In this document: piece by piece, positions 166-23,590 of the stretch
Position numbering within the stretch: the first letter of the stretch is position 1
Layout: every line of letters begins with the position of its first letter
Source of the DNA: Erysipelotrichaceae bacterium 7770_A6
Lineage (GTDB): Bacteria > Bacillota_I > Bacilli_A > Erysipelotrichales > Erysipelotrichaceae
Assembly: GCA_014610835.1 (NCBI GenBank)
Contig: QQXM01000009.1
Span: 1 to 39,514 of the forward strand
Direction: 5' to 3'
Length of the DNA stretch: 39,514 nt
Program-made: the position numbers and the translations under genes
Notes under the pieces: generated by a model
Database searches by the model: none
Seen by the model: only the letters and a program-made list of their open reading frames with translations
Told to the model about the DNA's origin: nothing

Positions 166-393
166 CTATTCTTCCTTCAATCTTTCAACCATTGCATATA
201 ATGCTTTTGCACTATTAAAGTTTTCAGGCACGATTTCAGAAGCTGGAATTGAAATATCATAATGATCATTCAATGTTGAAATAATCTGTAAGATATCAAA
301 AGAATCAATGATATGATCATCAATTAACGTATCGCAATGTTCAAAATCAACATCTTCTTTAATATCTTCTAATAATTCTAACAATTCATCCAT
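166..393 (-). CDS. Acyl/aminoacyl carrier protein (DltC-like)
   Basis: A 75-residue carrier protein of normal DltC/ACP length. The phosphopantetheine attachment serine is S31 in the DSFDI motif, inside the usual helix-2 start, and the protein is strongly acidic as expected. I chose ATG 391-393 because an ideal GGAGGA (401-406) lies 7 bases upstream; a longer upstream reading only adds residues encoded within the neighbouring gene. Its start overlaps the decarboxylase stop by 8 bases, which suggests translational coupling. Context (adenylating ligase, MBOAT, SGNH protein) says it carries an amino acid or amino-acid derivative as a thioester for transfer to a surface polymer. The identity of the cargo cannot be read from the sequence; D-alanine is the default for DltC, but the adjacent decarboxylase argues for something else. 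Confidence 0.85.
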   Translation of the reverse strand: MDELLELLEDIKEDVDFEHCDTLIDDHIIDSFDILQIISTLNDHYDISIPASEIVPENFNSAKALYAMVERLKEE

Positions 394-1564
394 TTTTTCT
401 TCCTCCAGGTATATTGAGAACATAAGATTCAACATGTCCTCTTTGTACTTCATAATCATACTTCTTTTTTCTCAGAAGTACACAAGGCAGCGTACGACTT
501 AAGAATAAATTAATGCCTTCAGTTACGGAATACGCACCAATATTTTCAAAAGCAATCAAATCACCTTCTGACAACCCTTTATGATACTTCCGAATCAAAA
601 TATCATTTGTGGAACAAAGTGATCCACAGATACACCAGTCTTTTGCTTCAACTTCCATATCTGTTATATGTTGTGTCACTGGTACATTCATTCCCATCAT
701 GCTTCCATAATAGTTCACATGATTGATACCACCATCCACAATACAATAATTCACACCTTTGTTTTCTTTTAAATCCATTACTTTTGTGAGGTATGTTCCA
801 CAATACGTTGCGAAAAATCTTCCCATTTCAATCGTAACGTCTTGTGCAAAAGAACTCAATTCCGTATGTATTTCTTTGAGTGGCTGATATGTATCACTGA
901 AATCTTCATTTTCAAATAATGATACGTTACATCCAGGTCCATACTCTAATTTATCTAACTTCACATGATGTTCTGCTTCAATTTCTTGAAACAATGCTTT
1001 TAGCATTTCTAATTCCTTAACTTTGTGTTCAATCTTTTTTCTTTGTGTTCCAACAAAGTAATGAATTCCTTTAACTTGAATATTTGAATATACATCCATT
1101 TGATCAATTACAGAAAGCAAATCTTTCTTCGACATTCCAAATTGTGAACCTGCATTCAATCGCAACAATACAGGAACTTTTATATTAAGTTTCTTTGCTT
1201 CTTCATTGATACATTTCACATGTTTCAGTGATTCGCAAGTCAATATGCCTACACCATATTGAATCGCTTCATCAATATCCCATACTTCTTTATTTACCCC
1301 AGAATAAATAATCATATTCCCAGGCACATGCAAAGCTTTACAAATCTCTAATTCCCCAGGAGAACACACTTCTAAATGATCTACAAGCTGAATCATTGTA
1401 GAAATCAGAAAAGGATTTGCCTTAATGGAATAACAAAGATGATATTTATCTTCGCTGATCTTTCCGATTTCTTTCACTCTTTCAATCAGTGCTTCTTCAT
1501 CAAAGATAAAACAAGGTGTCTGATACGTTGAAGCAATATATTTCAATTCTTCCCGATCAAGCAT
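386..1564 (-). CDS. Fold-type III PLP decarboxylase (LysA/BtrK-like)
   Basis: A 392-residue alanine-racemase-fold PLP decarboxylase of the diaminopimelate/ornithine decarboxylase family. Visible landmarks: PLP lysine K48 in YSIKANP; a glycine-rich YGPG at 208-211; MGRF at 247-250, where DAP decarboxylases usually have PGR; the catalytic-cysteine motif CGSLCSTND around C317; and GAYS at 343-346. ATG 1562-1564 is preferred because GGAGGA (1572-1577) sits 7 bases upstream. It overlaps the ligase gene by 8 bases and the carrier gene by 8 bases, so the three proteins are probably made together. Canonical dlt operons have no such enzyme. Known precedents for this family acting with a ligase and a carrier are BtrK of butirosin synthesis, which decarboxylates a glutamyl thioester on its carrier, and the decarboxylases of exosortase-associated polysaccharide clusters. 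Its substrate here (free or carrier-bound amino acid) is inference. A plain lysine-synthesis DapDC is less likely given the context. Confidence 0.8.
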   Translation of the reverse strand: MLDREELKYIASTYQTPCFIFDEEALIERVKEIGKISEDKYHLCYSIKANPFLISTMIQLVDHLEVCSPGELEICKALHVPGNMIIYSGVNKEVWDIDEAIQYGVGILTCESLKHVKCINEEAKKLNIKVPVLLRLNAGSQFGMSKKDLLSVIDQMDVYSNIQVKGIHYFVGTQRKKIEHKVKELEMLKALFQEIEAEHHVKLDKLEYGPGCNVSLFENEDFSDTYQPLKEIHTELSSFAQDVTIEMGRFFATYCGTYLTKVMDLKENKGVNYCIVDGGINHVNYYGSMMGMNVPVTQHITDMEVEAKDWCICGSLCSTNDILIRKYHKGLSEGDLIAFENIGAYSVTEGINLFLSRTLPCVLLRKKKYDYEVQRGHVESYVLNIPGGRKNG

Positions 1565-3080
1565 GTTTGATTCCTCCAAGTTCTTTTAGTGCATTGCGAT
1601 CTACTTTTCCATTCTTATTTATTGGAAATGCATCTAATGCAAATGCCTTATTAGGCAACATATATCCAGGCAATACATCTCTCAATTCACTGATCAACTG
1701 CTTTCCATCAATATTTCCTACATAGAAAAGAAGAATTCTTTTCTTGTTCGAATCATAAATACAGATTGCACGTGTAATATCAGCATGTTGTTCCACCTGT
1801 GCTTCAATTTCACCAAGTTCAATACGATGTCCAAGATGTTTGATTTGAAAATCCTTTCGACTTGTATAAATAAGTTTCAAATCATCTGTATATTTTCCTA
1901 AATCTCCTGTGCGATAAATTCTTTCATATGTTTTATCATTCAAAGGATTTTGAACAAAGACTTCATTTGTTTTCTTCATATCATGATAGTAGCCTAACGC
2001 AACACATGTACCAGAAACACAGATTTCTCCTTCTTGATCCGGTACTTGAATCAATGCATCATTTTCATCCAGAAGGAATACTTTTTCATTATCAAATGCT
2101 TTTCCAATCGGAAGTACTTCATCTAATTCATATTCTCTTGTTTCAAGCATTTCATATGTACAGTTACATGTAATTTCTGTAGGCCCATATAAATTCACAA
2201 ATGTTGTAAAAGGTAATGCCTTTGTCCATTTGTTCAGTTGCTTAATTGGCATCACTTCTCCAGAGAACATAACAAGTCTTACACTAACAGGTGTCTTATA
2301 CTGCAGACCATTCATAATAGATACAAAGCACATCGCACTCACAGCCCAGATCAGAACAGTACATCTTTGTGCACTCAAATAATCCATTAATACCGTAGGA
2401 TTTGAGAAGTATTCTCTAGGAATGATGGCAACACTTGCACCTGCACATATTCCACTATAAACATCTTTCACAGATACATCAAAATCAAATGGTGCCTGAT
2501 TTCCTAAAATATCACTCTGTTGAATGCCGGTTGTTTTAACAAATACTTCAATAAAATCAATCACATTCCTATGACAGACCGTAACACCCTTCGGTACACC
2601 CGTAGAACCAGATGTAAAGTTCACATACAGTGGATCCATATCCAGTGCCTGTTCTCTAATGGCATCTAGTCGTTCCTGATCCATCTTCTTTTCAAAAAGG
2701 ATATCCGCAATGACTTCTACACGAATCTCAGGGAACAACTTATGTGCTTCTTCTAGATGCTCTTCATCCGTCAAAATCAATGCAGGCTGTAATACAGATA
2801 TGATTTGATGCATCCTGCTTTCTGGCTGTCTTGTATCCAAGAACGAATACAGACATCCTCCATAGACGGCACCAAGCATACCACATACCGCATCAATATT
2901 CTTTTCCATATAGAAACCAACAGCACTTCTAACATCACACATATACGAAATATATGTACCGATACATTTTGCTTTCTGTTCCAATTCTTTAAAAGATATT
3001 TCATCTTTAGGATCTATGAATGCAATTCTCTTTTTTTCCTGTTCAGTTTTATTTTCAAGCCATTCTAATATATTTTTCAT
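1557..3080 (-). CDS. Amino-acid-adenylating ligase (DltA-like)
   Basis: A 507-residue adenylate-forming enzyme of DltA/NRPS A-domain type. It would activate a carboxylate with ATP and load it onto the carrier encoded downstream. Core motifs: TSGSTGVPKG at 156-165 (A3), FDFDVSV at 198-204 (A4, including the Asp that contacts the substrate amine in amino-acid-specific family members), NLYGPTE at 296-302 (A5), TGD at 391-393 (A7), and PINKNGKVDR at 486-495 with the catalytic Lys at 492 (A10). Length matches DltA. It follows the MBOAT stop by 3 bases with only a poor ribosome binding site, so it depends on coupling or a weak site; a nonsense codon in the upstream MBOAT could therefore affect its expression. 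The A4 Asp supports an amino acid substrate, but I cannot tell D-Ala from others. Confidence 0.85.
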   Translation of the reverse strand: MKNILEWLENKTEQEKKRIAFIDPKDEISFKELEQKAKCIGTYISYMCDVRSAVGFYMEKNIDAVCGMLGAVYGGCLYSFLDTRQPESRMHQIISVLQPALILTDEEHLEEAHKLFPEIRVEVIADILFEKKMDQERLDAIREQALDMDPLYVNFTSGSTGVPKGVTVCHRNVIDFIEVFVKTTGIQQSDILGNQAPFDFDVSVKDVYSGICAGASVAIIPREYFSNPTVLMDYLSAQRCTVLIWAVSAMCFVSIMNGLQYKTPVSVRLVMFSGEVMPIKQLNKWTKALPFTTFVNLYGPTEITCNCTYEMLETREYELDEVLPIGKAFDNEKVFLLDENDALIQVPDQEGEICVSGTCVALGYYHDMKKTNEVFVQNPLNDKTYERIYRTGDLGKYTDDLKLIYTSRKDFQIKHLGHRIELGEIEAQVEQHADITRAICIYDSNKKRILLFYVGNIDGKQLISELRDVLPGYMLPNKAFALDAFPINKNGKVDRNALKELGGIKHA

Positions 3081-3083
3081 AAG

Positions 3084-4616
3084 TCAAAATCCCGCATACA
3101 TCATCGCAACTTCATCATATCCAGGACCATATGCCCCAAATAAAATAACCGCAAAAATCAAAGCATAAAGCACACCCCATCGTACTGCAGATGGGCATCG
3201 ATCCAGCAAACCATGAATAGATACATTCTTTTCCTTCAGTACAGATACAACGATTACTACACCAAAAGAAACAATGACAGATATCCATTCTCGATTTGTT
3301 AAGCCAAGTGTAGGAAATACTTGTATCATTTCATTGATATTAAAGTTTGTAAACATACTTACAAGCATTGTCCATCCATCAGTAAATGTAGGAGCTCTAA
3401 AGAACATTTCACCAATAATCACAATGATAAATAACTTAATAAAGCGAAATGTTCGAATCCCCCAGCCATTCACATCCAAATGATGTTCCATACACCACTT
3501 TTCAAACGGCTTTTCCAAAAATAATTCAAGCACCATGAGAACAAAGTAATACATCCCATACAAAACATATGTCCAATACGGTCCATGCCAGAATCCATTA
3601 CAAATCCATACACAAAACAAAGCAATCAATGGGCCAACATATCTAGCAACCATATTTCCAAGATGATTCTTACACCATTTTGTTAATTTCTGAATTGGTT
3701 TACTTAAAGATACTGGATAAAATACATAGTCTCTCAAAAAAGCACCTAAAGTAATATGCCATCTTCTCCAGAAATCACCAGCATTCTTCGCAAAAAATGG
3801 CTGTCTAAAGTTTTCTGCAATCGTAATACCAAAGATTTTTCCAACACCTAATGCAATATCAATGGTACCTTTAAAATCCATATACAATTAAATCGTACAT
3901 AATACTGCAGCCAGTAAGCTCAATGCACCACTTGTCTTGTAATTTGCAAACAATGTATTCACAACACCACTCAAGTGATCCGCAATAATCATTTTCTGAA
4001 ATAAGCCCCATGTGATTCTTTCAACACCAAATGTAAAATTCTCTGGCGTAATTGGATTGCCTGATTTCAATTGGTCAATCATATCTGAAAATCTAGTAAT
4101 TGGACCTTCCATAATTGTTAAAAAGAAACTGTTATATAAAGATAAATCAAAGAATGAATGCGCTGGTTCTATCTTTTTGTTTGATACATCTACAAGATAT
4201 GAAATATTCTGCAGCGTGTAATAACTGATTCCAATTGGCGCAACAATACTGAGCGATGTAAAAGAGGAACCAAAAATTGTAGAACCTATGAAGTTTGTAT
4301 ATTTCAAGGCAATTAATACAAACAAATTAATTAGTACACTGATTGCAAGAATTGTTTTCTTCTGCTTTTTAAACTTCTTGCGATCTACATTTATTGGAGC
4401 TTTCTTCATTGAAGATAACTTTTTTCCAAACAAATACGTAATCAAAGTCGTAACTAAATTATAAACAATCAATTTCTTTGACCATACAAAGAAAAATGCG
4501 TAGTTAGCGAATAACAATGTCATCCATCTATATTTCCGGGGAAATATAGAATACAGAATCATAATCATTGGAACAAATCCAAGATAGAACAATATTGAAT
4601 TATAAGAAAATGTCAT
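3084..4616 (-). pseudogene. MBOAT O-acyltransferase (DltB/AlgI-like), interrupted by TAA
   Basis: Two abutting open frames (3888-4616 and 3084-3887) lie in the same frame and read as one 510-codon MBOAT gene broken only by a TAA at 3888-3890 (codon 243). The residues right after the stop, LYMDFKG, continue the conserved family block in which Gln precedes; CAA to TAA is a single transition. The 5' part holds about six membrane segments. The 3' part holds both signature regions, FWRRWH and NGFWHG, the latter with the invariant catalytic His. The intact enzyme would move the activated acyl or aminoacyl group from the carrier across the membrane onto a surface polymer, as DltB does. Re-initiation is possible (TTG 3885-3887 or the ATG two codons on), but no ribosome binding site is seen. 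Options are a true pseudogene, a sequencing error, or suppression/readthrough. No frameshift or other decay is visible, so the lesion is recent. Confidence 0.85.
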
Positions 4617-4618
4617 AC

Positions 4619-5542
4619 TTAATCATATTCACTCGCATCTTGTGCTAATGCATTCCATTCCTGATACGAGCTATCCTTTCTATGATCTTCTAATGCATAG
4701 TTTTTTTGAATATAATCACCAAGATTCTCACAAATCTTTTTAGAGCCATGAATATTCACATGTTCCCCGTAATCTCTTAAATCATTACTGAAATCAAAAT
4801 CAATTTTATCTAAAAGCTCAGATTGATTATAATCAACATACTTAACACCATTCTCATCACACCATGTCTGTATGATTTCATGTCTTCCATTTGTCCAAAC
4901 AAGAGGAGAAATTGTATTTACTAACAACAACTGACTATTTTGTCTTTTACAGAACTGATAAATCTTATCCAGATAGATTTGAGAATCAGCTGGCAATTTT
5001 TCAGATAGCTCTCTTTGCATATATACCGCATCTACCTGATATGGCGTAACCTGATCAGATTCATTAAAACCTTTTCGATCAGCTCTATAGTCAACCTTTT
5101 CCTCAAACAGCCATGCATTATGATAATGAAATATTGGAAATAGATTAAGCATTCCTAATTTTAAAACATTCAATGGCGTATAAATCATATTTACATCCAT
5201 TACCACAAGCTTTGGCTTTTGCTTATGAAAAACATTTTTTAACATCACATATGCATCATATGGAAACTGTCCTGGTGTACATGCATTATAGGAAGTAAAA
5301 CCATGATCAGTATAGAATTGCAAAGGATCATATGTTGCCCAGCCTTGACTATCTCCCAAAAAAGCAACATCAATTGAATTCTTTTTTTCTTCATTGAATA
5401 CTGCAACTTTAGAAGCAATATCCTCATACTGATACCCCATATCTCTATATTTTCTATATGGCAAACTAAAAACACATAATAATACACAAAAAACAATTCC
5501 AACTTTAACTAACCCTTTCCAAGTATACCGATGTGTATTCAT
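4619..5542 (-). CDS. SGNH/GDSL-like exported protein (DltD/AlgJ-like role)
   Basis: A 307-residue protein with one N-terminal membrane anchor (about 11-27) and an extracellular SGNH-type domain. FLGDSQ gives the candidate nucleophile S65, and NIHGS near H265 supplies the C-terminal His. This is the arrangement of DltD and of AlgJ/AlgX-type partners of MBOAT enzymes, which act outside the membrane in the final transfer or hydrolysis of an acyl group. I chose ATG 5540-5542 because AAGGAG (5547-5552) precedes it, though at a short spacing; an upstream TTG reading adds six residues and has no ribosome binding site. The gene ends 2 bases before the MBOAT start, so the pair is co-translated. The gene order (SGNH, MBOAT, ligase, decarboxylase, carrier) differs from the usual dltABCD order. 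The exact reaction is inferred from neighbours. Confidence 0.7.
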   Translation of the reverse strand: MNTHRYTWKGLVKVGIVFCVLLCVFSLPYRKYRDMGYQYEDIASKVAVFNEEKKNSIDVAFLGDSQGWATYDPLQFYTDHGFTSYNACTPGQFPYDAYVMLKNVFHKQKPKLVVMDVNMIYTPLNVLKLGMLNLFPIFHYHNAWLFEEKVDYRADRKGFNESDQVTPYQVDAVYMQRELSEKLPADSQIYLDKIYQFCKRQNSQLLLVNTISPLVWTNGRHEIIQTWCDENGVKYVDYNQSELLDKIDFDFSNDLRDYGEHVNIHGSKKICENLGDYIQKNYALEDHRKDSSYQEWNALAQDASEYD

Positions 5543-5586: not shown

Positions 5587-7425
5587 TTATTTTTTCGTAA
5601 TAACTTCAATGATCTTTTGATTATCTGCATTATTATCAGATACTAACTGTTGTAAAGCATTAATTTTTGTATTTACTTCATTCATTGTAATATCTTCAGG
5701 TTCCGCAACAAAAATCAAATTATTCGCAGTTTTTGTAGAATTCTTAGGATCCACCAATAACTCTTCATAAAGTTTTTCACCAGGTCTTAATCCTGTAAAT
5801 TCAATCTTGATATCTTCATCAGGAATTAAGCCAGATAACTGGATCAAGTTTCTCGCAAGATCAACAATCTTCACTGGTTTTCCCATATCCAGAATAAAGA
5901 TTTCACCAGTCTTCGCATAAGAACCTGCCTGTAAAACAAGCTGTGCAGCTTCTGGAATCGTCATAAAATAACGAATGATATTTGGATCTGTAACTGTAAC
6001 AGGTCCACCTGTCTCAATCTGTTTTTCAAATAAAGGAATAACAGAACCATTAGATCCAAGAACATTACCAAATCGTACGGCACATAACTTCGTAACTCCA
6101 TTGTTCTTATAGCCTTCCACAATGAGTTCACACATTCTCTTCGTTGCACCCATAACATTTGTTGTACGCACAGCCTTATCCGTAGAAATCATCACAAACT
6201 TATCCACATAGTTGGTAATACAACATTCCACAACATTCTTTGTTCCAAGAACATTGTTCTTAATGGCTTCTAGTGGACTGCTTTCAACAAGTGGTACATG
6301 CTTATGTGCTGCTGCATGGAATACAACATTCGGATGATATTTCTTCATAATTTCATCCACACGTTTTTTATCTCTCACAGAACCAATCAAACATACAACA
6401 TCCGTTACATTCTGATCATGACCATGTCTTCTTTCAATGTTGATTTCCTGCTGCAGGTCATACATGTTATTTTCATAAATATCTAATAACACAAGTCTTT
6501 TTGGTGTAAACTGCATAATCTGTCTAACAAGTTCAGAACCAATGGAACCACCTGCACCAGTTACCATAATTGTCTTGCCTGTAAGATATCCACCAATTTC
6601 CTCATTGTTTAAATACAATTCGCCTCTACCAAGAAGGTCATTGATATTAACATTACGAACAGATGCTCTTTCACCAACATTATTCTGTAACTCAAAGGAA
6701 ACAATTTTCGTACGTAGATTCATTTGTCTACATCTTTCAATCATTTCCCTGAGATCCTGTTGTGTAATATTCTTAATGGCAATATATGCTGTATCGATAT
6801 TGTATTGTTTTACAATACGAGGCATATCATCGTCTGTCCCCAATACAACAACACCACTTAATCTCTTCTTAACTTTCTGCTTATTTTTGTCAATAAAGCC
6901 AATGATTCTTGTGTCATAAAGATCACTATACGTAATTTCACGCATTGCGGTAACACCTGCAGAACCAGCACCAAGAATCACTGCTCGATGACTTCTATGA
7001 CGTTGTGCAGAGTCTCTTCTAACAACACGATACATCAAACGTAAGCCAAGCATTAAAAGAAGCTGGATCATTCCCGCAATGACAGGTACACTTCTAACAT
7101 ACCATGGAATCTTTACAAGAAGCATTCCAAGCCACCATGCAAAGTTGCCAACAAACACTGCTACCGCAACTCTTAAAGCTTCATCCACAGAAATAAACAT
7201 CCACAATGACTTATTCAACTGGAACAACAAAATCGAAGCCAGATTCGTAATGATTGGCCAGTACATATATTTCCATAATGTCTGATGTTCAAAAGGAATA
7301 ACTTCTTTACCAAAATCTGTTCTAACAAAATAAGCAAACCAATATGAGAAAATAACAATTGTAATATCGACAATTGCCATAATGATCTCTCTATGTTTAC
7401 TAATCCATCTATAAAATTTCTGCAT
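5587..7425 (-). CDS. CapD/PglF-type UDP-GlcNAc 4,6-dehydratase
   Basis: A 612-residue membrane-anchored nucleotide-sugar dehydratase of the FlaA1/WbpM/PglF/CapD long form. About four membrane segments fill residues 15-130. A first Rossmann-like domain follows with GAGSAG at 152-157, then the catalytic SDR domain with TGAGGSIGSE at 289-298, STDKA at 414-418 and MGATK at 425-429. Met where most SDRs have the catalytic Tyr is typical of this subfamily. It likely makes the UDP-4-keto-6-deoxy-HexNAc precursor of sugars such as QuiNAc, FucNAc or bacillosamine for the polymer built upstream. The start at 7425 has no ribosome binding site and sits 5 bases behind a strong hairpin; an internal ATG (7378-7380) has a weak AGAGAG upstream but would begin right at the first membrane segment. 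The Dlt-like genes follow after a short gap. Confidence 0.9.
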   Translation of the reverse strand: MQKFYRWISKHREIIMAIVDITIVIFSYWFAYFVRTDFGKEVIPFEHQTLWKYMYWPIITNLASILLFQLNKSLWMFISVDEALRVAVAVFVGNFAWWLGMLLVKIPWYVRSVPVIAGMIQLLLMLGLRLMYRVVRRDSAQRHRSHRAVILGAGSAGVTAMREITYSDLYDTRIIGFIDKNKQKVKKRLSGVVVLGTDDDMPRIVKQYNIDTAYIAIKNITQQDLREMIERCRQMNLRTKIVSFELQNNVGERASVRNVNINDLLGRGELYLNNEEIGGYLTGKTIMVTGAGGSIGSELVRQIMQFTPKRLVLLDIYENNMYDLQQEINIERRHGHDQNVTDVVCLIGSVRDKKRVDEIMKKYHPNVVFHAAAHKHVPLVESSPLEAIKNNVLGTKNVVECCITNYVDKFVMISTDKAVRTTNVMGATKRMCELIVEGYKNNGVTKLCAVRFGNVLGSNGSVIPLFEKQIETGGPVTVTDPNIIRYFMTIPEAAQLVLQAGSYAKTGEIFILDMGKPVKIVDLARNLIQLSGLIPDEDIKIEFTGLRPGEKLYEELLVDPKNSTKTANNLIFVAEPEDITMNEVNTKINALQQLVSDNNADNQKIIEVITKK

Positions 7426-7430
7426 AACTA

Positions 7431-7472
7431 AAAATAGACACAGTAAGTCCTTTACTTACTTGTGTCTATTTT
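7431..7472 (-). terminator. Terminator-like hairpin just before the dehydratase start
   Basis: A long inverted repeat: AAAATAGACACA pairs with TGTGTCTATTTT, extended by GTAAGT/ACTTAC with a one-base bulge around a 5-base loop. On the minus strand the stem is followed by TTTTTAG. It would terminate transcripts from the membrane-protein gene at 7525-9270, separating the export/GT half of the locus from the dehydratase/Dlt-like half. It lies only 5 bases upstream of the dehydratase start codon, which is unusual for a simple terminator. Confidence 0.75.
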
Positions 7473-7524
7473 ATCACACACACTATTAGATACCAAATTT
7501 CACAAAATGAAGAATTATTAAGAA

Positions 7525-9270
7525 TTAGTAAACTTCTATAACTTTTCCACTGCTAAGTTCATTGTTGTATTCATAGATAATATTTCCAGATTCATATAAC
7601 TCGCTTATTTCTTCTTCGCTCAATTCACTATTCACACAAATATATTTGTACGAACCATCAATGATTCTGCTTTGAATCATACTTGAATTTCCACTTGTTT
7701 CGATCTCTGTTTGATTTGTAAATGTTTTAAACCAGTTGGCGTGAATTTCATCACCAACATACAACATTTCCCCATCAGCTAAGTTTTCAGTAATATCATG
7801 GCATTCTTGATATAACGCTATTTCATCATTATCGATAAATGGCTGATTCAAAAAGAAATTTCCATTAAACCAGTAAATATTCAAAAAACAATTTGCTCCC
7901 GTTTTAATTTCTTGATTTCCACTGAATTTTTGATCAACATCATCAACAATTACAAATGCACTCAATACAAAGATACATGCTGCAAATGCATTCATAAATT
8001 CTTTATTATATCTAGATAGCTCTACAATTTCTTCCATCGTCATAACAAAACATAGAAGCCAGATAATATTATACATTTTACTCAGATAATATGTGGAAAC
8101 CACACCAATCCAACTGCCAGCTAAAAATAAACCCGTAAAAGCAATTGTTGTGACAAACATCCAGAATACACCATCATATTGATGATGCTTAATTCTTTTA
8201 ATCATAGTAGAAATAACAAATGGTGCTAATAGAACAAAGTTACTATATAAATCAAAATATTTACCCCCATCATTGCCAATTCCACCACCAGAACTTATTT
8301 CTTTTAAATTGACATAGGCATGTGCCATTCCCAACATACAAGGAAAGATAAATACTTTAAATAGTTCAGAAATACTTTCTTTGCTTATGATTTTATTTCC
8401 AAGTTTCTTCTGTACAGCAAGGTCATCAATGAATACCCCTAAAAATACACTAGGAACAAACATCGTATATGTTGTAAAAATACCAAACAGACCTAAATTC
8501 AACATTATCAGAATCCACTGATGTTTTAATTCTGCCGTTTCATACATTTTCAACACCAAAAGAATAAAACAGATAATTGTTACCGCATCCCCAAAATATA
8601 CAAAGCCAAACATCAATGCATATAAAGGATATCCAAAAATATAAAACGCAGTGACAACAATACCCACTATTTTTTGATAACGCGTAACACACAATTCACG
8701 AATCAAACTATAAAATAACAGCCCAGCTAGAAAGAAGTCAACAATACGCATGAATGCAAAGGAATGATAAAAACCATTGATACCTGTAACTGTTAACAAT
8801 GCTTCCATAACTAACCCATCATTGACATATCCAAAGAACAGATTGGAATTCAATGTATGTCGTAATGCAATCTGCTTTGCCCATCTGCAATGTACAGATG
8901 CATCTACAGAAACATAGCGAATCGGTAATTTACATCTGAAATATCCAACCCAGAAGCATAAAGTCAAAACAATCAAAAAACAAAGCACAATTTTATCATT
9001 TTTTGAAAACACATATTTCTGTGTATGATTTTTGCTATATGCCAATAATATTCCGCCAAGAATCATCACTGGAAGTGAAATCGTATATACACAGATTGGA
9101 ACACCAATCAGCCCATATATACCAGCTAAAACCGTATTTACAAGCATATATGAAAGAATCGTCATTCCAAGAAAAAGAATACCAGATAATCTCTGCTCAC
9201 TCTTCTGTATTCTGAAAAAGCCAGCACTAAAAATCAGCAAAGAAATAAAATATAACAGTAACTTTCCCAT
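7525..9270 (-). CDS. Polytopic membrane protein, possible GT-C glycosyltransferase
   Basis: A 581-residue protein with roughly a dozen hydrophobic segments across residues 1-430 and a C-terminal soluble part of about 120 residues. A large first outer loop region holds RYVSVDASVHCRW, with acidic and His residues of the kind seen in GT-C transferases that use polyprenyl-linked donors; this similarity is general, not family-defining. ATG 9268-9270 is supported by AAGGAG at 9277-9282, 6 bases upstream. It follows the DUF2142-like gene by 10 bases and shares its operon. Role inferred: adding a sugar, or otherwise modifying the polymer, on the outer face after ABC export. I do not recognise a named family. 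Confidence 0.6.
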   Translation of the reverse strand: MGKLLLYFISLLIFSAGFFRIQKSEQRLSGILFLGMTILSYMLVNTVLAGIYGLIGVPICVYTISLPVMILGGILLAYSKNHTQKYVFSKNDKIVLCFLIVLTLCFWVGYFRCKLPIRYVSVDASVHCRWAKQIALRHTLNSNLFFGYVNDGLVMEALLTVTGINGFYHSFAFMRIVDFFLAGLLFYSLIRELCVTRYQKIVGIVVTAFYIFGYPLYALMFGFVYFGDAVTIICFILLVLKMYETAELKHQWILIMLNLGLFGIFTTYTMFVPSVFLGVFIDDLAVQKKLGNKIISKESISELFKVFIFPCMLGMAHAYVNLKEISSGGGIGNDGGKYFDLYSNFVLLAPFVISTMIKRIKHHQYDGVFWMFVTTIAFTGLFLAGSWIGVVSTYYLSKMYNIIWLLCFVMTMEEIVELSRYNKEFMNAFAACIFVLSAFVIVDDVDQKFSGNQEIKTGANCFLNIYWFNGNFFLNQPFIDNDEIALYQECHDITENLADGEMLYVGDEIHANWFKTFTNQTEIETSGNSSMIQSRIIDGSYKYICVNSELSEEEISELYESGNIIYEYNNELSSGKVIEVY

Positions 9271-9280
9271 TTGGTTCTCC

Positions 9281-10975
9281 TTATAATACAAGCATTAAAT
9301 TACAGATTGTTAAATACTCAGCAAAACACAACAAACAGCAAACTACTATTTGATAGTCATTTTTTAAATGTAAGAAGTTAAAATCTAAAGTCACTAATAT
9401 CAATACAACACTTGCCAGCAAATATCTTCCCTGCATTCCCAAAACCATTTGGTCTTGTAATGTTGAATTTGCCAACAGCATCCCCGCGAATGCAAATGCA
9501 CCTGTTAAAATTCCAACAACAACAAAAACACATTTTATGTACTTTGGCAGAGCTCCAATTTCCTTTTCTTCTGGAATTGAAACTATAAACAATAATAAGT
9601 AATATACATAAATTAAATATGGATGAATTCCTATATCAAGATAACCTAAATATCGCCCAATAAAAGAATCTAAGTGAAATGATCCAAATGTTAATAACGT
9701 ATTGTATATGATCAATATAATTTCTTTAGGATTTTGAAGTAAATACATCACGGTATACTTATCATTTGGATTCAAAACAACTGCTGGTAAAAATCTTGCA
9801 CCAACAAATGCACAAGCAAAACATACACATACACCTATTGTCATCATTGTTAAAATCATTTTTTTCTTCTTAGAAAAATTGATTTTCTTTACCAACAGAC
9901 AAAGTAATGGCAATAATCCAACAAGAATATACGCATGACTTTTAACTTCACATAGCGCAATACAACTAATAACAGCTATTGCAATTTCAAGTTTATTTAT
10001 AGAATTCTCTTGATTCGAAAACAATCTCATTGAAATTGAAATCACATATAAAAGCATCAAATTAATAGGTACATCATACGAAATTGATATTCCTTGCTGC
10101 ATAAATACAGGCAACAATCCCATTAACAAAAATAAAGACTTTTTTGTAGAAGTTCTTTTTATGATGAAATACATTCCAAAAATATATAAAGCAAAATCAA
10201 GAATTCTACCCAGGAAATACATTTGATATGCATTAAATGATAACAATCTTCCAATTGCAATTCCTATTGCTGGCAGAACATATAGAAAATCAGTTCCAAC
10301 AACATATGGTAATGTAAAGCTATTTAATTGTGGATTTACTTCACACTCATTCATATCAACAAAATACTGATTATAGTTTTCATTATTATACGTTCCTGCT
10401 TCAGAAACTAAGAATCGAGTTCCGTCTGATTCTCTCATTGTAATCATATTTTCTTCGTTTTTTACACCTAAAAATTGATTAGATATTCGATACGCAGTGA
10501 ATGAGTGCATTCCTTCATCTGGAACAATTCCTACTGGAATGACAATCATAAAGGCCATTCCAACCGCAAACATAATAGAGAACATAATTTTTTCAAGCTC
10601 TTTTTTCCAAACTACTACATTCAGAAAAGTCAAAAACATCCCAGAAAAGACAATGAATGAAACACACGAAAACAACAAAATCATTTGGTAATATGTACCA
10701 AATTTCACTTTCAATAAAGCAATAGATAAAACAAAAATAAAAAACAGAAATAAAACAAAAAGTTTTCTTTTAGGTGAACAAAGAGATTGTCTAATACTAT
10801 CTTTCCATCCATACTGCATCATATTCTTAACAAATATAAATAGTAAAAGAAGTTCACTCAAAGATACGATCTTCATTGTGAACTTAATAAAAGATGAAAA
10901 TGTAATCAATAAAGCAAGAAACAAAAATGAAATACACAATCCTGCTTCTTTTTTTATTCCGCTATTCTTTAACAT
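9281..10975 (-). CDS. DUF2142-like polytopic membrane protein
   Basis: A 564-residue integral membrane protein with many hydrophobic segments and the outer-loop motif VPDEGMHSFTAYR (a PDE..H..A pattern) after the fourth or so segment. That motif is the hallmark I associate with DUF2142 proteins of Gram-positive surface-polysaccharide loci. The biochemical role of the family is not settled; a GT-C-like glycosyl transfer from a lipid-linked sugar is plausible. ATG 10973-10975 overlaps the end of the ABC ATPase gene by 7 bases and has GAGG close upstream, so the genes are coupled. With the following membrane protein it forms a pair that sits after the ABC exporter genes, consistent with modification of exported chains. 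Confidence 0.65.
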   Translation of the reverse strand: MLKNSGIKKEAGLCISFLFLALLITFSSFIKFTMKIVSLSELLLLFIFVKNMMQYGWKDSIRQSLCSPKRKLFVLFLFFIFVLSIALLKVKFGTYYQMILLFSCVSFIVFSGMFLTFLNVVVWKKELEKIMFSIMFAVGMAFMIVIPVGIVPDEGMHSFTAYRISNQFLGVKNEENMITMRESDGTRFLVSEAGTYNNENYNQYFVDMNECEVNPQLNSFTLPYVVGTDFLYVLPAIGIAIGRLLSFNAYQMYFLGRILDFALYIFGMYFIIKRTSTKKSLFLLMGLLPVFMQQGISISYDVPINLMLLYVISISMRLFSNQENSINKLEIAIAVISCIALCEVKSHAYILVGLLPLLCLLVKKINFSKKKKMILTMMTIGVCVCFACAFVGARFLPAVVLNPNDKYTVMYLLQNPKEIILIIYNTLLTFGSFHLDSFIGRYLGYLDIGIHPYLIYVYYLLLFIVSIPEEKEIGALPKYIKCVFVVVGILTGAFAFAGMLLANSTLQDQMVLGMQGRYLLASVVLILVTLDFNFLHLKNDYQIVVCCLLCFAEYLTICNLMLVL

Positions 10976-11718
10976 TCGCCTCTCATTAAACTTTCTTCAT
11001 ATAAATCACAAACTTTATTTGCTTCACCAGTCATGACAACTTTTCCATGTCTTAACCAGACTGCCTTATTACAGATTTCTTTAATTTGTGCAACATTGTG
11101 AGAAACAAATAAAACAGTAGAACCACCACTCATCAACTCAACCATACGATCTCTACTCTTCTTCTGGAAATTCTCATCACCAACACTCAAAACTTCATCA
11201 ACAATCAATATTTCAGGATTGATCATAGAGGCAATTGAGAAAGCAAGTCTAGCAACCATTCCAGAAGAATAGTTTCTTACAGGCATATTAATGAAATCGC
11301 CAAGTTCAGAGAAAGCTAAAATTTCATCATATTTTTCATCCAGAAATTCTTTCGAATAGCCTAATACAGCGCCATTCAGATAAATATTTTCTTTCCCAGA
11401 TAATTCAATATCAAACCCCGCGCCAAGCTCAAGCATAGGTACAACTCTTCCACCTAATACAACATTGCCACTTGCAGGTTTTTGAATTCCAGATACAACT
11501 TTTAACAACGTAGACTTACCAGCACCATTCGCACCGACAATTCCTACGACATCACCTTTTTCAACTGTAAAACTAACATCATCCAGAGCTAAGAATTCTT
11601 TTTCTGTAATTTTTTTTCCAATCTTTTTAATAATGTATTCTTTTAAGCTTGATACTCTATCATTCGCAATTTTATATCTTACAGTTACATTATTCACTTG
11701 AACCATTGTCTGCTTCAT
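10969..11718 (-). CDS. Polysaccharide ABC exporter ATPase (TagH/Wzt-like)
   Basis: A 249-residue ATP-binding subunit. Walker A GANGAGKST at 62-70, signature YSSGM at 150-154 with downstream ARLAFS, Walker B ILIVDE at 170-175 and switch His H207. The subfamily is recognisable from LGAGFDIELSGKENI, typical of TagH/RfbB/Wzt exporters. It powers export of lipid-linked glycan by the permease encoded just upstream. It lacks the C-terminal carbohydrate-binding domain of long Wzt proteins and the long TagH tail, so any chain-end recognition must lie elsewhere. ATG 11716-11718 is preferred with AGAGG upstream; GTG 11722-11724 and ATG 11704-11706 are alternatives. Confidence 0.92.
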   Translation of the reverse strand: MKQTMVQVNNVTVRYKIANDRVSSLKEYIIKKIGKKITEKEFLALDDVSFTVEKGDVVGIVGANGAGKSTLLKVVSGIQKPASGNVVLGGRVVPMLELGAGFDIELSGKENIYLNGAVLGYSKEFLDEKYDEILAFSELGDFINMPVRNYSSGMVARLAFSIASMINPEILIVDEVLSVGDENFQKKSRDRMVELMSGGSTVLFVSHNVAQIKEICNKAVWLRHGKVVMTGEANKVCDLYEESLMRGEC

Positions 11719-11726
11719 AACCACCT

Positions 11727-13154
11727 CTAAATATATAGAATAAACTTATCTTGATTCTTACGGAATACATGGATACCAATCATCAAGAAGAATATAGGGA
11801 ATACAATCATCAGAACAACAAGATCTGTACCAGGATACATGTTATTCAACACAATATTTCTAACAAAAATAATGATATCTGCAAGAGGATTGATTTTAAA
11901 GATCCAGTTATATTTATCTGGAATCATTGACATATCCCAGAACATTGGCGTTGCATATGTCAAAGCTGTCATAAATACGTTGTAAATAAACTGCACATCT
12001 CTAAAGAATGTCATTCCTGTTGCCAACAATAATGCCACACCAGTATTCAGAATAAAAATACTAAGCATCGCAAATGGAATCAACAAAAAATAAATATTAG
12101 GCATCAGTCCATTCACAAGTGCAACACCAAACATTAAAATCAAAGAAATGCCAAAGTTGATTGAAGCAGAAAATACCTGCGATAAAGGATAAATATATTT
12201 TGGAACATATACTTTCTTGATCAAAGAAGCATTTGTGATGATAGATAAAGAACCACCATTTGTTGCTTCTGAATAGAAGTTAAAGAATGTAATACCAATA
12301 ATCAAATATACAATATAGTTTGGAATTGCTGATTTAAATACAAGTGTAAATACAAAGAACTGTACAATCATTGTAAGCAATGGATTCACAAAACTCCAAA
12401 GAATACCAAGTGCACTTCTCTTATAACGCACTTTAAATTCTCGACTCACTAATTGATGCATCAAAAAGGAATATTGATGATATGCATCCATGATTGCCAT
12501 ACCAACTGTATGTTTTCCCTTTTTCTCTGCAACAAATAAATGAATACAATACACACCTAAAATAACTAAGAATGCAATGACACCAATTGTTAAAATCAGT
12601 CCTAATGGTTCATTTACTTTTCCATTCACTGTACAAAGAAGCTGTCTTTCTTTAAGTTCAATATTCTTTGCTTCAAGATAAGTACACTCAGAATTAGAAA
12701 CACCATAATATACTGTCACCGCATTTCCACTCTTCGCACCATGTGAAGTAATTCTTAATGTATATGGCTGGTTTACATCCACATTTACAGGTTCATCAAA
12801 TGTAATTGTATTATCTCCATTAGATAAATCTTTACAGTCAACTGTTTTAGACGCTAATACCTTATCATTTTCCAATAAAGAAATATCTAAATCACAATCA
12901 TTGACTCTATCATATGTACCAACTTTCAATTCTAATGATAATATTTCAGAAGCATTACTAACCAAAGTCTGTTCAACAACATCACCATCAACAATTTCAC
13001 CGATATTATCAATTTCATTCACATCGCCAGTATGGACACGTTTTAAATAAATATCTCTACCACCAACGAGAAAACATACAAGACAATATCCTGCAATACA
13101 TACATATATTAATAAAACTTTCAGCCATAATGGCAGCTTCTCTTTTTTATTCAT
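11727..13154 (-). CDS. ABC-2 polysaccharide permease with N-terminal outer domain
   Basis: A 475-residue permease. Residues about 220-475 are a standard TagG/Wzm ABC-2 membrane domain (SREFKVRYKRSALGILWSF is the classic entry motif), which alone would be the normal length of about 260 residues. In front lies an additional unit: membrane segment 11-30, an extracytoplasmic region about 35-183 that looks beta-rich and resembles a carbohydrate-binding-like fold only in general composition, and a second membrane segment 185-207. It exports the polymer together with the ATPase encoded 8 bases downstream. ATG 13152-13154 has AGAGGT at a good distance. The ectodomain may contact the emerging glycan or couple export to the outer-face enzymes; that is inference. 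Confidence 0.85.
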   Translation of the reverse strand: MNKKEKLPLWLKVLLIYVCIAGYCLVCFLVGGRDIYLKRVHTGDVNEIDNIGEIVDGDVVEQTLVSNASEILSLELKVGTYDRVNDCDLDISLLENDKVLASKTVDCKDLSNGDNTITFDEPVNVDVNQPYTLRITSHGAKSGNAVTVYYGVSNSECTYLEAKNIELKERQLLCTVNGKVNEPLGLILTIGVIAFLVILGVYCIHLFVAEKKGKHTVGMAIMDAYHQYSFLMHQLVSREFKVRYKRSALGILWSFVNPLLTMIVQFFVFTLVFKSAIPNYIVYLIIGITFFNFYSEATNGGSLSIITNASLIKKVYVPKYIYPLSQVFSASINFGISLILMFGVALVNGLMPNIYFLLIPFAMLSIFILNTGVALLLATGMTFFRDVQFIYNVFMTALTYATPMFWDMSMIPDKYNWIFKINPLADIIIFVRNIVLNNMYPGTDLVVLMIVFPIFFLMIGIHVFRKNQDKFILYI

Positions 13155-13181
13155 TATCTACCTCTTTCAAGTTCGCGGTAT

Positions 13182-13190
13182 ATTATATCA
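13182..13190 (-). promoter_or_regulatory. Possible internal extended -10 promoter before the exporter genes
   Basis: TGATATAAT on the minus strand gives a perfect -10 hexamer with a TG extension, 28 bases before the permease start codon, in the only sizeable gap between the GT gene and the exporter. No good -35 is seen, so this is a candidate extra promoter, not a certain one. Confidence 0.4.
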
Positions 13191-13202
13191 CAATCAATAA
13201 TC

Positions 13203-15296
13203 TTAATCTTTTCGAATCGTGTGATATACCTTTTTTAGAATTCTAATAGATTTGTTTTTTACTCTTCTTGTAAAAGATGGTGCTGGTGCAACTGGTAATT
13301 CAGGTTTAAGAATACGATTGCATTCACTAACAAATTCATCTGAAGGAATATTGCTTTCCTTTTTATACGTTCTTTCCAGTTTCTGTAAAGAAATCTCCTG
13401 ACCATTCATCAATTTATCCACAGCTTCTACAAACTGTTCAAATCCTTTTTCCAAAGGATAGTCTTTCATATATGATGGTCCAAACGCTGACATCTTTTCT
13501 AAACGCTCTTCATCATCCAGCAGTTTCAAGATTGTATCTGCAATTCCCGCAGAGCTAGATTCCGCAAGCACGACACCTTCATCAGGAAGATCATATAAAT
13601 TGTTCTCACGATACAGTTCAACAACAGGCAAGCCTGCTGCCATCATTTCAAATGGAATTCTAGATGGATTAGATGCACTCAAACATAAGCCAAGTTTACA
13701 GGTATTGTATAATTCATTACATTTCTGAACATTAATAATATGTAACTCTTCCGCTTCAAATGGAATATTTACCTGAACATCTGATCCATACAGATAAATC
13801 TTTACATCTGGTCTTTTTTCTTTTACAACTTTCAATGCTTCCAATGCAATGGTTGTACCTCTACGAGGTTTTTCTGGCTGCAGAACATAACAAATCGCAT
13901 TTTCTTTTTTGATATTCTGTAATGGGTGATACACATTTAAGTCAGCACAGAAATCAAAGTGCTGTGCCTTTGTATGGAATTCATTCTGCATCTTAGAAGC
14001 AAGCCATTTACCAATTGTAATTGGCTGATAGCCAAGACGATAAGAATTCTCAATCACAAGATATTCATCACCCATTGGGAAGAACCAAGGTTCATAATCC
14101 TGAATGAAATACCCTTTCACATCCGCATCCATACACTTCACATAGTTCAAAGACTGCCATCCAGTCGCAAATAACAAATCATATTTTTCTCTATGACCAA
14201 AATTCGCATACACCTTTGCTGCACAAGTTTCATAGTATTCATCAATCAGCTTCGCAACAGTATCATCATCCACTTCTGCAGGTGCTTCTGCATAAATATC
14301 ACATTCATATCCATGACGAATCAATGCATTTACATTTTGAATGATTGTTCTATGTCCACCAGATCCCTTTCCAGGGAAAGGAATGATCCAGGCAATTCTT
14401 TTCTTATGCGCCTGTTTTGATACGTCATGATCCATATAACTTCTACGCAATCTCTGCCATTTATAAATTTCCATTCCAACATGGTACTGGTTCGCAACCA
14501 TTTCCTGGATTTTAACAATTTCACCATATTCAATATCACATTTGATAGAACTTGTTACAGAGCCTTCATGCTTACGATAATAATTCAAACAATCTTTTGT
14601 AAAAGCAAGCTTACCATTTTCAAGCAGCTTCACATAAATGTACCAGTCACCTGCTACTTTATAATTCTTTGCTTCTTCAATAATATCAATGATATTTTTC
14701 TGTACTTTCCATACAACACCAGAAACGTTCAAAATTGTATTCAAAACACTCAAGTATTGAACTACTTCTTCTTTTCCATCAACCACAAAACTATGATTCC
14801 AATGATCTGTACCAAACATGTTATACAGATCCTGACAATTCTTACGAATCACATTATTCTGATCATCAATTCTCATTGAATCAGAATAGGACAGCACAAC
14901 CTCTTCATCATCAAAGCCTTTCATGACAGTTTCTAAAAAATGTGGATCAGCACTATCATCCGCTTCACAAATCCAGAAATAATCACCTGTAACTTCTTTG
15001 ATGCCTTTCTGCCATTGTGAAAAAACCAGTCCACTATTCTTCTCATTTGGAATAAATTTCGTCTTGATTCCTTCAATTTCAGATAATTTCTTCTGAATCA
15101 CTTCAATACTGTTATCTGAAGAACAATCATCCAATACAATCAATTCATATACAGGATATGTTTGATGAATAATCGAATCAATTCTTTCGTTCAGAAAAGC
15201 AGCATAATTGTAGTTTGGTACAATTACACTTACTTTTTTTACATTCTCTGTTACTTTAGAATCAGAAAATTTCTCATAAATATTCACTTTACTCAT
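13203..15296 (-). CDS. Two-domain glycosyltransferase: GT2 plus WsaF-like GT-B
   Basis: A 697-residue cytoplasmic protein. Residues about 20-265 form a GT-A/GT2 domain (VSVIVPNYN at 22-30, DDCSSD at 56-61, EADDSAD at 111-117 as the metal-binding segment). Residues about 299-640 form a GT-B domain that begins IAWIIPFPGKGSGGHRT, matching the start of WsaF-type rhamnosyltransferases of S-layer glycan clusters. The end is basic. A double-headed enzyme could add two linkages of the repeat unit or switch chains. ATG 15294-15296 (MSKVN) is chosen with AGGTG just upstream; GTG 15303-15305 is an alternative. It lies 35 bases after the next GT gene, same operon. Sugar specificity cannot be read from the sequence. 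Confidence 0.85.
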   Translation of the reverse strand: MSKVNIYEKFSDSKVTENVKKVSVIVPNYNYAAFLNERIDSIIHQTYPVYELIVLDDCSSDNSIEVIQKKLSEIEGIKTKFIPNEKNSGLVFSQWQKGIKEVTGDYFWICEADDSADPHFLETVMKGFDDEEVVLSYSDSMRIDDQNNVIRKNCQDLYNMFGTDHWNHSFVVDGKEEVVQYLSVLNTILNVSGVVWKVQKNIIDIIEEAKNYKVAGDWYIYVKLLENGKLAFTKDCLNYYRKHEGSVTSSIKCDIEYGEIVKIQEMVANQYHVGMEIYKWQRLRRSYMDHDVSKQAHKKRIAWIIPFPGKGSGGHRTIIQNVNALIRHGYECDIYAEAPAEVDDDTVAKLIDEYYETCAAKVYANFGHREKYDLLFATGWQSLNYVKCMDADVKGYFIQDYEPWFFPMGDEYLVIENSYRLGYQPITIGKWLASKMQNEFHTKAQHFDFCADLNVYHPLQNIKKENAICYVLQPEKPRRGTTIALEALKVVKEKRPDVKIYLYGSDVQVNIPFEAEELHIINVQKCNELYNTCKLGLCLSASNPSRIPFEMMAAGLPVVELYRENNLYDLPDEGVVLAESSSAGIADTILKLLDDEERLEKMSAFGPSYMKDYPLEKGFEQFVEAVDKLMNGQEISLQKLERTYKKESNIPSDEFVSECNRILKPELPVAPAPSFTRRVKNKSIRILKKVYHTIRKD

Positions 15297-15331
15297 ATAC
15301 ATCACCTACATATCATTTTACACAATAATCA

Positions 15332-18938: not shown

Positions 18939-18947
18939 TGAACACCA

Positions 18948-20915: not shown

Positions 20916-20945
20916 TCTATCTCTCCCTTAACAATAACGTTTTAT

Positions 20946-20974
20946 ATAATATTCTATTTCAATGTTTTGTCCAA
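20946..20974 (-). promoter_or_regulatory. Promoter upstream of the GT-B/GT25 pair
   Basis: On the minus strand TTGGAC, a 17-base spacer and TATTAT form a good sigma-A type promoter, ending about 30 bases before the start codon at 20915. It would let the glycosyltransferase/export block be transcribed independently of the Gtr-like genes upstream. Confidence 0.5.
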
Positions 20975-21013
20975 TAATAAACAAATGAATCTTTTAGTTT
21001 TTTACTTAAAAAT

Positions 21014-22585: not shown

Positions 22586-22642
22586 ATTTTCCTCGTACTA
22601 TATTCTCATTTCTACACTTTTATTTGTTGCATTTAAAATTTT

Positions 22643-23590
22643 TCAATTAATTTCTTCAACATTTAATTTATTAGTCTCCGCAACAATATAATGCGGTCTA
22701 TGCTTACTTTCAGAGTAATTTTTAGCAATATATTGTCCCATCACTCCCATACAAAATAACTGAATTCCACCGATAAATACAATCACACATATTGTGGAAG
22801 CCCAACCAGCTACTGGATCTCCAAAACATAATTTTCTTACAATAATCAAAATCAAAAATATAAAGGCTAAAAATGTCATTGCAATTCCAAACCAAGAAGC
22901 AATATCTAAAGGAGCTTCTGAAAAATTAATGATTCCATCTATTGCATACTTAAACAAGCTCCAGAAATTCCATTTTGTTGTTCCTGCAACTCGTTCAGTA
23001 TTTTCATAAGGTAGCCAATAAGTGCGAAAACCAATCCATCCAAAAATACCTTTTGAAAAGCGATTAGTCTCTCCCATTGCTACAATCGCATTTACCATTT
23101 CTCGCTTCATAAGGCGAAAATCTCTTGCACCATCTACAATATCTGCATCAGATATCTTGTTAATTAATGAATAAAAACGTTTAGCAAACCAAGATCTAAT
23201 TGGAGGTTCGCCATCACGATTCACTCGTCGTGTTGCAACGCTATCGTATTCCCCTGTCTCAATGATTTTCAACATATCTATTAGGAGTGAAGGTGGATCT
23301 TGCATATCAGCATCCATCACAGTTACATAATCACCATCAGCATTACAAAAACCAGCATACATTGCTGCTTCTTTTCCAAAATTTCTAGAGAAAGAAATAT
23401 AACGTACATTCTTATCAGTATTAGCAATTTCTTTCAATATTTTTAACGTATTATCTTTAGATCCATCATTAATAAACAACAATTCATATTCATACTCAAT
23501 TTCTTTCATTACAGATGTTGCTTCACGATAAAAAATTGGAAGTGCTTCTTGCTCATTAAAACATGGAACAACGAGTGTTATTTTTTTCAT
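22643..23590 (-). CDS. GtrB-like polyprenyl-phosphate glycosyltransferase
   Basis: A 315-residue GT2 enzyme of the GtrB/DPM1-like group. Near the N-terminus: LVVPCFNEQ and FINDGSKDNT. The metal/donor site is DADMQDPP. The C-terminus has two membrane segments (about 230-255 and 265-290), the usual GtrB topology. It should transfer a hexose from a UDP-sugar to undecaprenyl phosphate on the inner face. ATG 23588-23590 is supported by GGGAG (23597-23601) 6 bases upstream. It lies between the GtrA-like and the large membrane protein genes, in the transcription order gtrA, gtrB, gtrC known from O-antigen glucosylation clusters. In Gram-positive bacteria, relatives such as CsbB and YkoT feed teichoic acid or LTA glycosylation. 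Confidence 0.88.
   Translation of the reverse strand: MKKITLVVPCFNEQEALPIFYREATSVMKEIEYEYELLFINDGSKDNTLKILKEIANTDKNVRYISFSRNFGKEAAMYAGFCNADGDYVTVMDADMQDPPSLLIDMLKIIETGEYDSVATRRVNRDGEPPIRSWFAKRFYSLINKISDADIVDGARDFRLMKREMVNAIVAMGETNRFSKGIFGWIGFRTYWLPYENTERVAGTTKWNFWSLFKYAIDGIINFSEAPLDIASWFGIAMTFLAFIFLILIIVRKLCFGDPVAGWASTICVIVFIGGIQLFCMGVMGQYIAKNYSESKHRPHYIVAETNKLNVEEIN

Follow-up and report, generated by a model that had tools for sequence, protein, structure and literature searches.

The five contiguous genes at positions 5542-166 (minus strand) of the contig analysed here form a Dlt-like module with a built-in PLP (pyridoxal 5'-phosphate) decarboxylase, and this module probably serves to attach a decarboxylated amino acid, as an ester, to an exported surface glycan. 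The contig, which in its entire length of 39,514 bp is called the window (G000:C14), belongs to the draft genome of Erysipelotrichaceae bacterium 7770_A6 (2.28 Mb, 98.4% complete), whose relatives were recorded as Erysipelotrichaceae/Solobacterium in our scan of species genomes. In this order, the genes code for an SGNH protein, an MBOAT, an amino acid-carrier ligase, a decarboxylase and a carrier protein. By analogy with characterized systems, the arrangement is best read as a Dlt/Pat-type transferase that would be fed by on-carrier chemistry of the VinN-VinO-VinL kind and would produce a beta-alanyl- or GABA-type (4-aminobutyryl-type) surface ester; the substrate, the timing of the decarboxylation and the polymer acceptor are the parts of this reading that we infer.

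In the proposed mechanism the ligase would activate an acidic amino acid via its side-chain carboxylate and attach it to the carrier's phosphopantetheine arm, so that the alpha-amino and alpha-carboxylate groups stay free. The PLP decarboxylase would strip the alpha-carboxylate on the carrier to yield beta-alanyl- or 4-aminobutyryl-S-carrier, the MBOAT would take this group from the carrier inside the cell to the tyrosine of its own C-terminal xxYxxF motif outside, and the SGNH protein would pass it, via its catalytic serine, to a hydroxyl of the exported polymer. Loading through the side chain is suggested by the need of a PLP decarboxylase for a free alpha-amino acid end, an alpha-linked thioester would be unusable. 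The small, Lys-filled pocket of the ligase suggests a mild preference for L-Asp over Glu as substrate.

The gene arrangement is as described in the first-pass annotation of the window. The SGNH gene (4619-5542) is followed by the MBOAT gene (3084-4616), and the genes of the adenylate-forming ligase (1557-3080), the alanine-racemase-fold decarboxylase (386-1564) and the carrier (166-393) are joined by 8-bp overlaps, ATGCTTGA at 1557-1564 and ATGGATGA at 386-393, all on the minus strand. Pfam searches of the module proteins found the AMP-binding, Orn/DAP/Arg decarboxylase, PP-binding and MBOAT families. The carrier matches PF00550 above the cutoff and has its phosphopantetheine serine, Ser31 (303-301), in the sequence DSF; this serine was kept in 72/72 carriers of the wider set of loci described below.

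The decarboxylase belongs to the module, and the module is real and widespread. A scan of 273 genomes of the window's family gave 31 strong decarboxylase matches including that of the window; in the 30 other loci, which were fetched, the ligase always adjoins the decarboxylase (30/30), an MBOAT is present in 28, and all five genes are found in 26, in varied order. Three weak decarboxylase matches (approximately 80 bits) in the same scan had no ligase nearby and looked like LysA. When the scan was widened to 84,980 species genomes, the best 80 of 576 candidate decarboxylase loci contained the ligase in 75 cases and all five genes in 51, several of the remainder lying on short contigs. This 80-locus set comes from Erysipelotrichia, Lachnospiraceae, Ruminococcus albus, Gemmiger, Coriobacteriia (Slackia, Olsenella, Tractidigestivibacter) and Treponema sp. 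CETP13. A third sample, 250 genomes from the family of a Butyrivibrio carrier, had a ligase of the module type in 101 genomes and the decarboxylase in 49; 47 of 50 decarboxylases were at most 6 kb from a ligase, and the decarboxylase was adjacent to 38 of the 42 ligases that scored above 660 bits. The recurrence of all five genes in 26/30 and 51/80 loci is far from what chance would give, and the retention of gene content while the order varies fits the prediction of selection on joint function. The co-occurrence check on genomes has thus borne out the earlier proposal that the decarboxylase is part of the module.

The window ligase scored 265 bits against the DltA model TIGR01734 (cut-off 559.85), and a DltA above this cut-off was found in only one of the 273 family genomes. 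In GrsA numbering the pocket of the module ligases reads D235 V236 K239 W278 M/L299 S301 L322 C330 N331 K517, with Met at 299 in the window ligase, whose Lys239 codon is at 2468-2466. By comparison, L236, M239 and C301 are found in L097, a canonical DltA retrieved by the same search. Judged from these residues the ligase is not a DltA, its pocket swaps the DltA Met for Lys/Arg and the Cys for Ser, and it is unlikely to load only D-alanine. Of the 72 ligases covered in the wider set, 68 have Lys and 4 have Arg as this basic residue, which would suit a second carboxylate, and Ser301 occurs throughout. Lys/Arg239, Val236 and Ser301 would fit a ligase that loads an acidic amino acid by its distal carboxyl, but the pocket lacks the K330/R331 of VinN and is shared with clusters that have no decarboxylase. 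VinN activates the distal carboxyl of 3-methylaspartate and has a conserved Asp for the beta-amino group together with Phe236 and Ser301, and an engineered beta-Phe TycA has Val at 236 (PMC11253843). VinN and the module ligase are alike in Ser301 and in the bulky residue at 236, thus the pocket parallels (Asp, position 236, Ser301) make distal-carboxyl activation of Asp plausible, not proven. Arg239 codes may also occur in the side-chain-activating aminoadipate domains of ACV synthetase and Lys2, which would be a lead.

The same surface product could be reached in a different order, if the decarboxylase first converted a free amino acid, for example Asp into beta-alanine or Glu into GABA, and the product was loaded by the ligase afterwards. 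Many alanine-racemase-fold decarboxylases use free amino acids (PMC7857480), and the adjacency of ligase and decarboxylase in nearly all loci would be explained by either order. However, the Lys/Arg at the base of the pocket, present in 72/72 ligases, would be unnecessary for beta-alanine or GABA, and clusters lacking the decarboxylase share the same ligase pocket. Moreover, VinN rejects the decarboxylated amino acid (PMC11284099), and BtrK, the nearest structural relative of the decarboxylase, acts on a carrier. We regard decarboxylation before loading as unlikely, but as the main rival to the proposed mechanism.

BtrK, which converts glutamyl-BtrI to GABA-BtrI (PMC7857480), is the top solved match of the decarboxylase both by sequence (4.6e-28) and by predicted structure (pLDDT 91.5, TM 0.88), and the closest structures are all decarboxylases. 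The PLP lysine (Lys48, 1423-1421), Cys317 (616-614), Arg249 and Glu349 are invariant in 81/81 module decarboxylases. At the position of the distal-site Glu of LysA, all 81 have Thr or Ser (Ser318 in the window enzyme, 613-611). In Thermotoga LysA this residue, Glu315, lies just past the catalytic Cys and binds the distal amino group of DAP (diaminopimelate), and the E315T mutant lost most of its DAP activity and preferred 2-aminopimelate (PMC8277567); the Thr/Ser of the module enzymes is the same kind of change. LysA has a second distal Arg in an IRPxxY segment, where by inspection of the alignment the module enzymes have HxxYYG. The LRL-FGM loop consists of five residues in the module decarboxylase, compared with approximately 18-19 in BtrK and LysA; this shortening is read from alignment A1, which is gap-free from Arg135 to Gln141 in 30 rows, and when the loop deletion in the active site was looked for by regular expression in the 80-locus set, mixed spacings were returned, apparently from false starts.

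The decarboxylase scored 170 bits against the LysA family TIGR01048 (cut-off 298). The genes dapA and dapB were not found in the window genome (98.4% complete) by searches in which all or most control genomes were positive, consequently the usual route to meso-DAP should be missing. In each of five carriers, Butyrivibrio NC2002, Slackia exigua, Eubacterium ramulus, Ruminococcus albus and Gemmiger formicilis, the module enzyme scores approximately 500 bits and a second, LysA-like gene with a weak match is present besides. On the grounds of the replaced distal Glu, the missing dapA and dapB, and the separate LysA in these five carriers, the identity of the enzyme as a housekeeping LysA was rejected, and with it the possibility, raised in the first-pass annotation, that it acts on free meso-DAP as the only lysA of the genome.

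A PLP enzyme of this fold might also catalyse another reaction on the carrier, e.g. epimerisation instead of decarboxylation. The alanine racemase fold, visible as a Pfam Ala_racemase_N match, and the common occurrence of D-amino acids in surface polymers would be in line with such a role. It is nevertheless distinctly improbable: besides having only decarboxylases as its closest structures, the enzyme bears the decarboxylase signature, namely an invariant Glu246 in EMGR, corresponding to the Glu of DAP decarboxylase that contacts the PLP ring nitrogen, and the invariant Cys317.

The transferase end of the module is of the acyl-shuttle kind, in line with the MBOAT/SGNH transfer proposed earlier. 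The MBOAT protein, which matches Pfam MBOAT in both halves of its interrupted gene, has the conserved histidine of GFWHG (3587-3585), as seen in an alignment with its relatives, and ends in MMYAGF (3087-3104; Tyr at 3098-3096), a form of xxYxxF whose first motif position is Met, not Phe. A YxxF or YxxY C-terminus was found in 59 of 60 MBOAT relatives. In the Dlt system this motif is carried by DltX, while PatA has a C-terminal FXYXXF of its own and acetylates the Tyr in it (PMC12148441); with its own YxxF shuttle motif, the module MBOAT should, like PatA, not need DltX. The SGNH protein, a putative extracytoplasmic acyltransferase with an N-terminal transmembrane helix, had no Pfam and no NCBIfam match. 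We assign it to the SGNH fold because G63-D64-S65 and D257..H261 (DxxxH) are invariant in 22 relatives (Ser65 at approximately 5350-5348, His261 at approximately 4762-4760) and because its AlphaFold model (pLDDT 91.1) was matched by Foldseek to TesA-type SGNH hydrolases (E approximately 1e-6). The features of an MBOAT-SGNH envelope acyltransferase, i.e. the catalytic His, the C-terminal FXYXXF-type motif and an SGNH partner with Ser and Asp-His, are thus all present.

In the window the MBOAT gene is split into two open reading frames by an in-frame TAA (3890-3888, minus strand), at a site that is Gln in 39 of the 41 informative rows of relatives. Apart from this stop both halves are intact, pointing to either a recent loss or an assembly error, and the remaining four genes of the module are open. 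This copy of the MBOAT is probably broken and non-functional, or else the TAA base is an error of the assembly. A second damaged module was seen at L063, in a genome consisting of one contig (G147; 6000-8948), where the MBOAT lies in two overlapping frames and the decarboxylase is broken near its C-terminus. The closest relative of the window module (L034, 3801-9827; decarboxylase identity 64%) has two MBOAT and three SGNH genes with one ligase-decarboxylase-carrier set, therefore a single loading unit may serve two acceptors.

The carrier-bound product could also be used mainly elsewhere than by the adjacent MBOAT and SGNH protein, for instance in a soluble or secreted metabolite, the neighbourhood being merely often shared. 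Ligase-decarboxylase(-carrier) units without an adjacent MBOAT do exist (L037, L038, L122 and L132). Yet the MBOAT is present in nearly all family loci and in most complete loci of the wider set, clusters that lack the decarboxylase retain the ligase, carrier, MBOAT and SGNH genes, and neither condensation nor polyketide genes were noticed next to the module. We give this explanation little credence.

It is instructive to compare the module with known systems. The Dlt system (DltA, DltC, DltB, DltX, DltD) is similar in that an adenylating ligase and a standalone carrier feed an MBOAT and an SGNH transferase. It differs from the module, which adds the PLP decarboxylase, has a ligase whose pocket and family scores are not those of DltA, and has the shuttle Tyr fused to the MBOAT, not on DltX; its SGNH protein, having no Pfam match, is not recognisable as DltD. 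The carrier scored 30.4 bits against the DltC model NF003464 (cut-off 68), and the MBOAT scored 89.8 bits against the DltB model TIGR04091 (cut-off 375) with one half of the broken gene and gave no match with the other. With DltA, DltC and DltB all under the cut-off and a different ligase pocket, a canonical Dlt operon was rejected. That an ordinary dlt operon for D-alanine received a housekeeping lysA by chance is very improbable, for although the decarboxylase and the ligase are each the sole match of their family in the window genome and DltA, DltC and LysA are among the best NCBIfam matches, the scores are far under the curated cut-offs (265/560, 30/68 and 170/298 bits), the evidence against a LysA given above applies, and the adjacency is conserved over several classes.

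The PatA/PatB-type MBOAT-SGNH O-acetyltransferases (PMC12148441) share with the module the MBOAT His, the C-terminal xxYxxF and the SGNH partner, but they use acyl-CoA and do without a carrier protein, whereas the module has a ligase and a carrier built in. Having a carrier and at the same time a shuttle motif fused to the MBOAT, the module mixes the Dlt and the Pat layouts. For the loading end the nearest parallels are VinN-VinO-VinL of vicenistatin and FlvN of fluvirucin biosynthesis, where genes for an adenylating ligase, a standalone carrier and a PLP decarboxylase are likewise found: the VinN-type ligase loads (methyl)aspartate on the carrier by the distal carboxyl, and the PLP enzyme turns it, still on the carrier, into a beta-amino acyl group by decarboxylation (PMC11284099). 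In the module, too, these three proteins are encoded together. VinN-VinO-VinL differs in serving antibiotic polyketide assembly, not a surface glycan, and VinN has K330/R331 and a shorter pocket loop. The BtrI-BtrJ-BtrK set of butirosin biosynthesis includes the closest solved relative of the decarboxylase and turns a glutamyl-carrier into a GABA-carrier; VinO and BtrK are both precedents for decarboxylation on the carrier. The Btr set differs in making an aminoglycoside antibiotic and in that BtrK retains the active-site loop which is shortened in the module. BtrJ, which the first-pass annotation had offered as a precedent for the ligase, is an ATP-grasp ligase, not an adenylating enzyme, and therefore a poor one; a better match is VinN-VinO-VinL (PMC11284099). 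The exosortase A-associated ligase and decarboxylase (TIGR03098, TIGR03099), annotated as one system, are recognisable relatives of the module enzymes. An exosortase A-associated PEP1 cluster was rejected, the scores being far under the cut-offs (TIGR03098, 165/592 bits; TIGR03099, 164/478 bits).

Several observations weigh against a surface ester made by side-chain loading and on-carrier decarboxylation. The K330/R331 of VinN are absent in the module ligase, nor is its shortened beta13-beta14 loop apparent in the window ligase. Most of the ligases retain Asp235, the residue to which the alpha-amino group binds in ordinary A domains, and this equally fits activation of the alpha-carboxyl. The DVKW pocket occurs in at least 10 clusters without a decarboxylase, and Lys239 is also found in DAKW ligases, which were never found with a decarboxylase. 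The scores of the decarboxylase with BtrK and with LysA are near each other in sequence and structure searches alike. The four loci L037, L038, L122 and L132 have no adjacent MBOAT/SGNH, and in the window isolate itself the MBOAT step is probably broken by the TAA.

The clusters without the decarboxylase are informative about the logic of the system. In the window's family there are ten ligase-carrier-MBOAT(-SGNH) clusters of this sort, six with other pocket codes and four with DVKW or DGKW. The decarboxylase is present in 30 of 34 clusters of the DVKW/IARW type and in none of the six with other codes (Fisher p approximately 5e-5, a nominal value as the sequences are related). In the ligase tree the decarboxylase-linked DVKW ligases make up one clade of 93 (support 0.995), which has a single member without decarboxylase and has the formyltransferase cluster L233 as its sister; another DVKW clade is without decarboxylase, and a separate decarboxylase-linked branch comprises the IARW ligases of R. 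albus and G033. The refuting condition named in the first-pass annotation, that homologous clusters routinely lack the decarboxylase, holds only for neighbouring ligase clades and not for the decarboxylase-linked clade, where loss is rare. As the DVKW pocket is shared with decarboxylase-less clusters, the pocket alone does not reveal the final product, and Lys239 by itself, being present in decarboxylase-less DVKW and DAKW clusters, was rejected as proof of a decarboxylation-linked acidic substrate.

Beside or among their core genes, the decarboxylase-less DVKW clusters have Formyl_trans_N (L233, L235, L237), a hexapeptide acetyltransferase (L107) or a GNAT (L242) gene, and some have none; these clusters would attach an undecarboxylated or an N-acylated residue. 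The PF00551 formyltransferase genes lie beside the ligase and carrier genes (L233, 5-850; L235, 5559-6440; L237, 3451-4302) and point to N-formyl-aminoacyl surface groups. The F-A-T start of linear gramicidin synthase is a known case of N-formylation on a carrier. Acetyltransferase genes of the GNAT or hexapeptide type were found inside related ligase-carrier-MBOAT-SGNH clusters at L102 (6741-7538), L242 (9572-10480), L247 (7691-8551) and L107 (8491-9186). The presence of formyl- and acetyltransferase genes where the decarboxylase is missing suggests an exchangeable tailoring step. There may be a large family of surface aminoacylation systems, spread over gut Firmicutes, Coriobacteriia and some spirochaetes, that pair a common ligase-carrier-MBOAT-SGNH core with an exchangeable on-carrier tailoring enzyme (PLP decarboxylase, formyltransferase, GNAT or hexapeptide acetyltransferase) to make beta-alanyl, GABA and N-formyl- or N-acetyl-aminoacyl esters, not D-alanine esters, a generalization for which we see an even chance. 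Some ligases of the same family (L101, L105, L106, L251) have SMLW or SMTW pockets without the amino-binding Asp235; these probably load a hydroxy or other non-amino acid in the same kind of surface system.

Our literature search, covering papers outside subscription journals, found no description of the five-gene set, of such amine esters, or of tailoring in a Dlt-like module. The module would be a form of MBOAT-SGNH surface acylation that draws on chemistry familiar from the making of antibiotics. It would join two mechanisms that are known only apart, carrier-bound decarboxylation in antibiotic biosynthesis and the MBOAT acyl-shuttle. D-alanylation sets the wall charge of Gram-positive bacteria and affects resistance to antimicrobial peptides and immune sensing. 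If the proposed function is true, the surface chemistry of many abundant gut bacteria (Butyrivibrio, Roseburia, Lachnospira, Gemmiger, Ruminococcus, Slackia) extends beyond the D-alanine picture, and 'DltA' and 'LysA' annotations hide a parallel amine-ester system.

In the window the module comes after a polysaccharide cluster on the same strand (5587-24122), with a CapD/PglF-like dehydratase, a DUF2142 protein, a Wzt/Wzm-type ABC exporter (10969-13154), several glycosyltransferases and GtrA. This neighbourhood makes an exported glycan a plausible acceptor, and the cluster is the likely source of the exported polymer. Close to it lies a gene for a GH25 muramidase with choline-binding repeats (27694-29361). 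At the far end of the polysaccharide cluster there are prfA- and prmC-like genes (24202-26123); such genes also stand directly ahead of the ligase-decarboxylase pair in L037 (3443-8148), thus the locus may be a shared insertion region. A 910-amino-acid protein with a TOTE-conflict archaeo-eukaryotic primase domain and a helicase is encoded at 29919-32648 and is possibly a defence gene.

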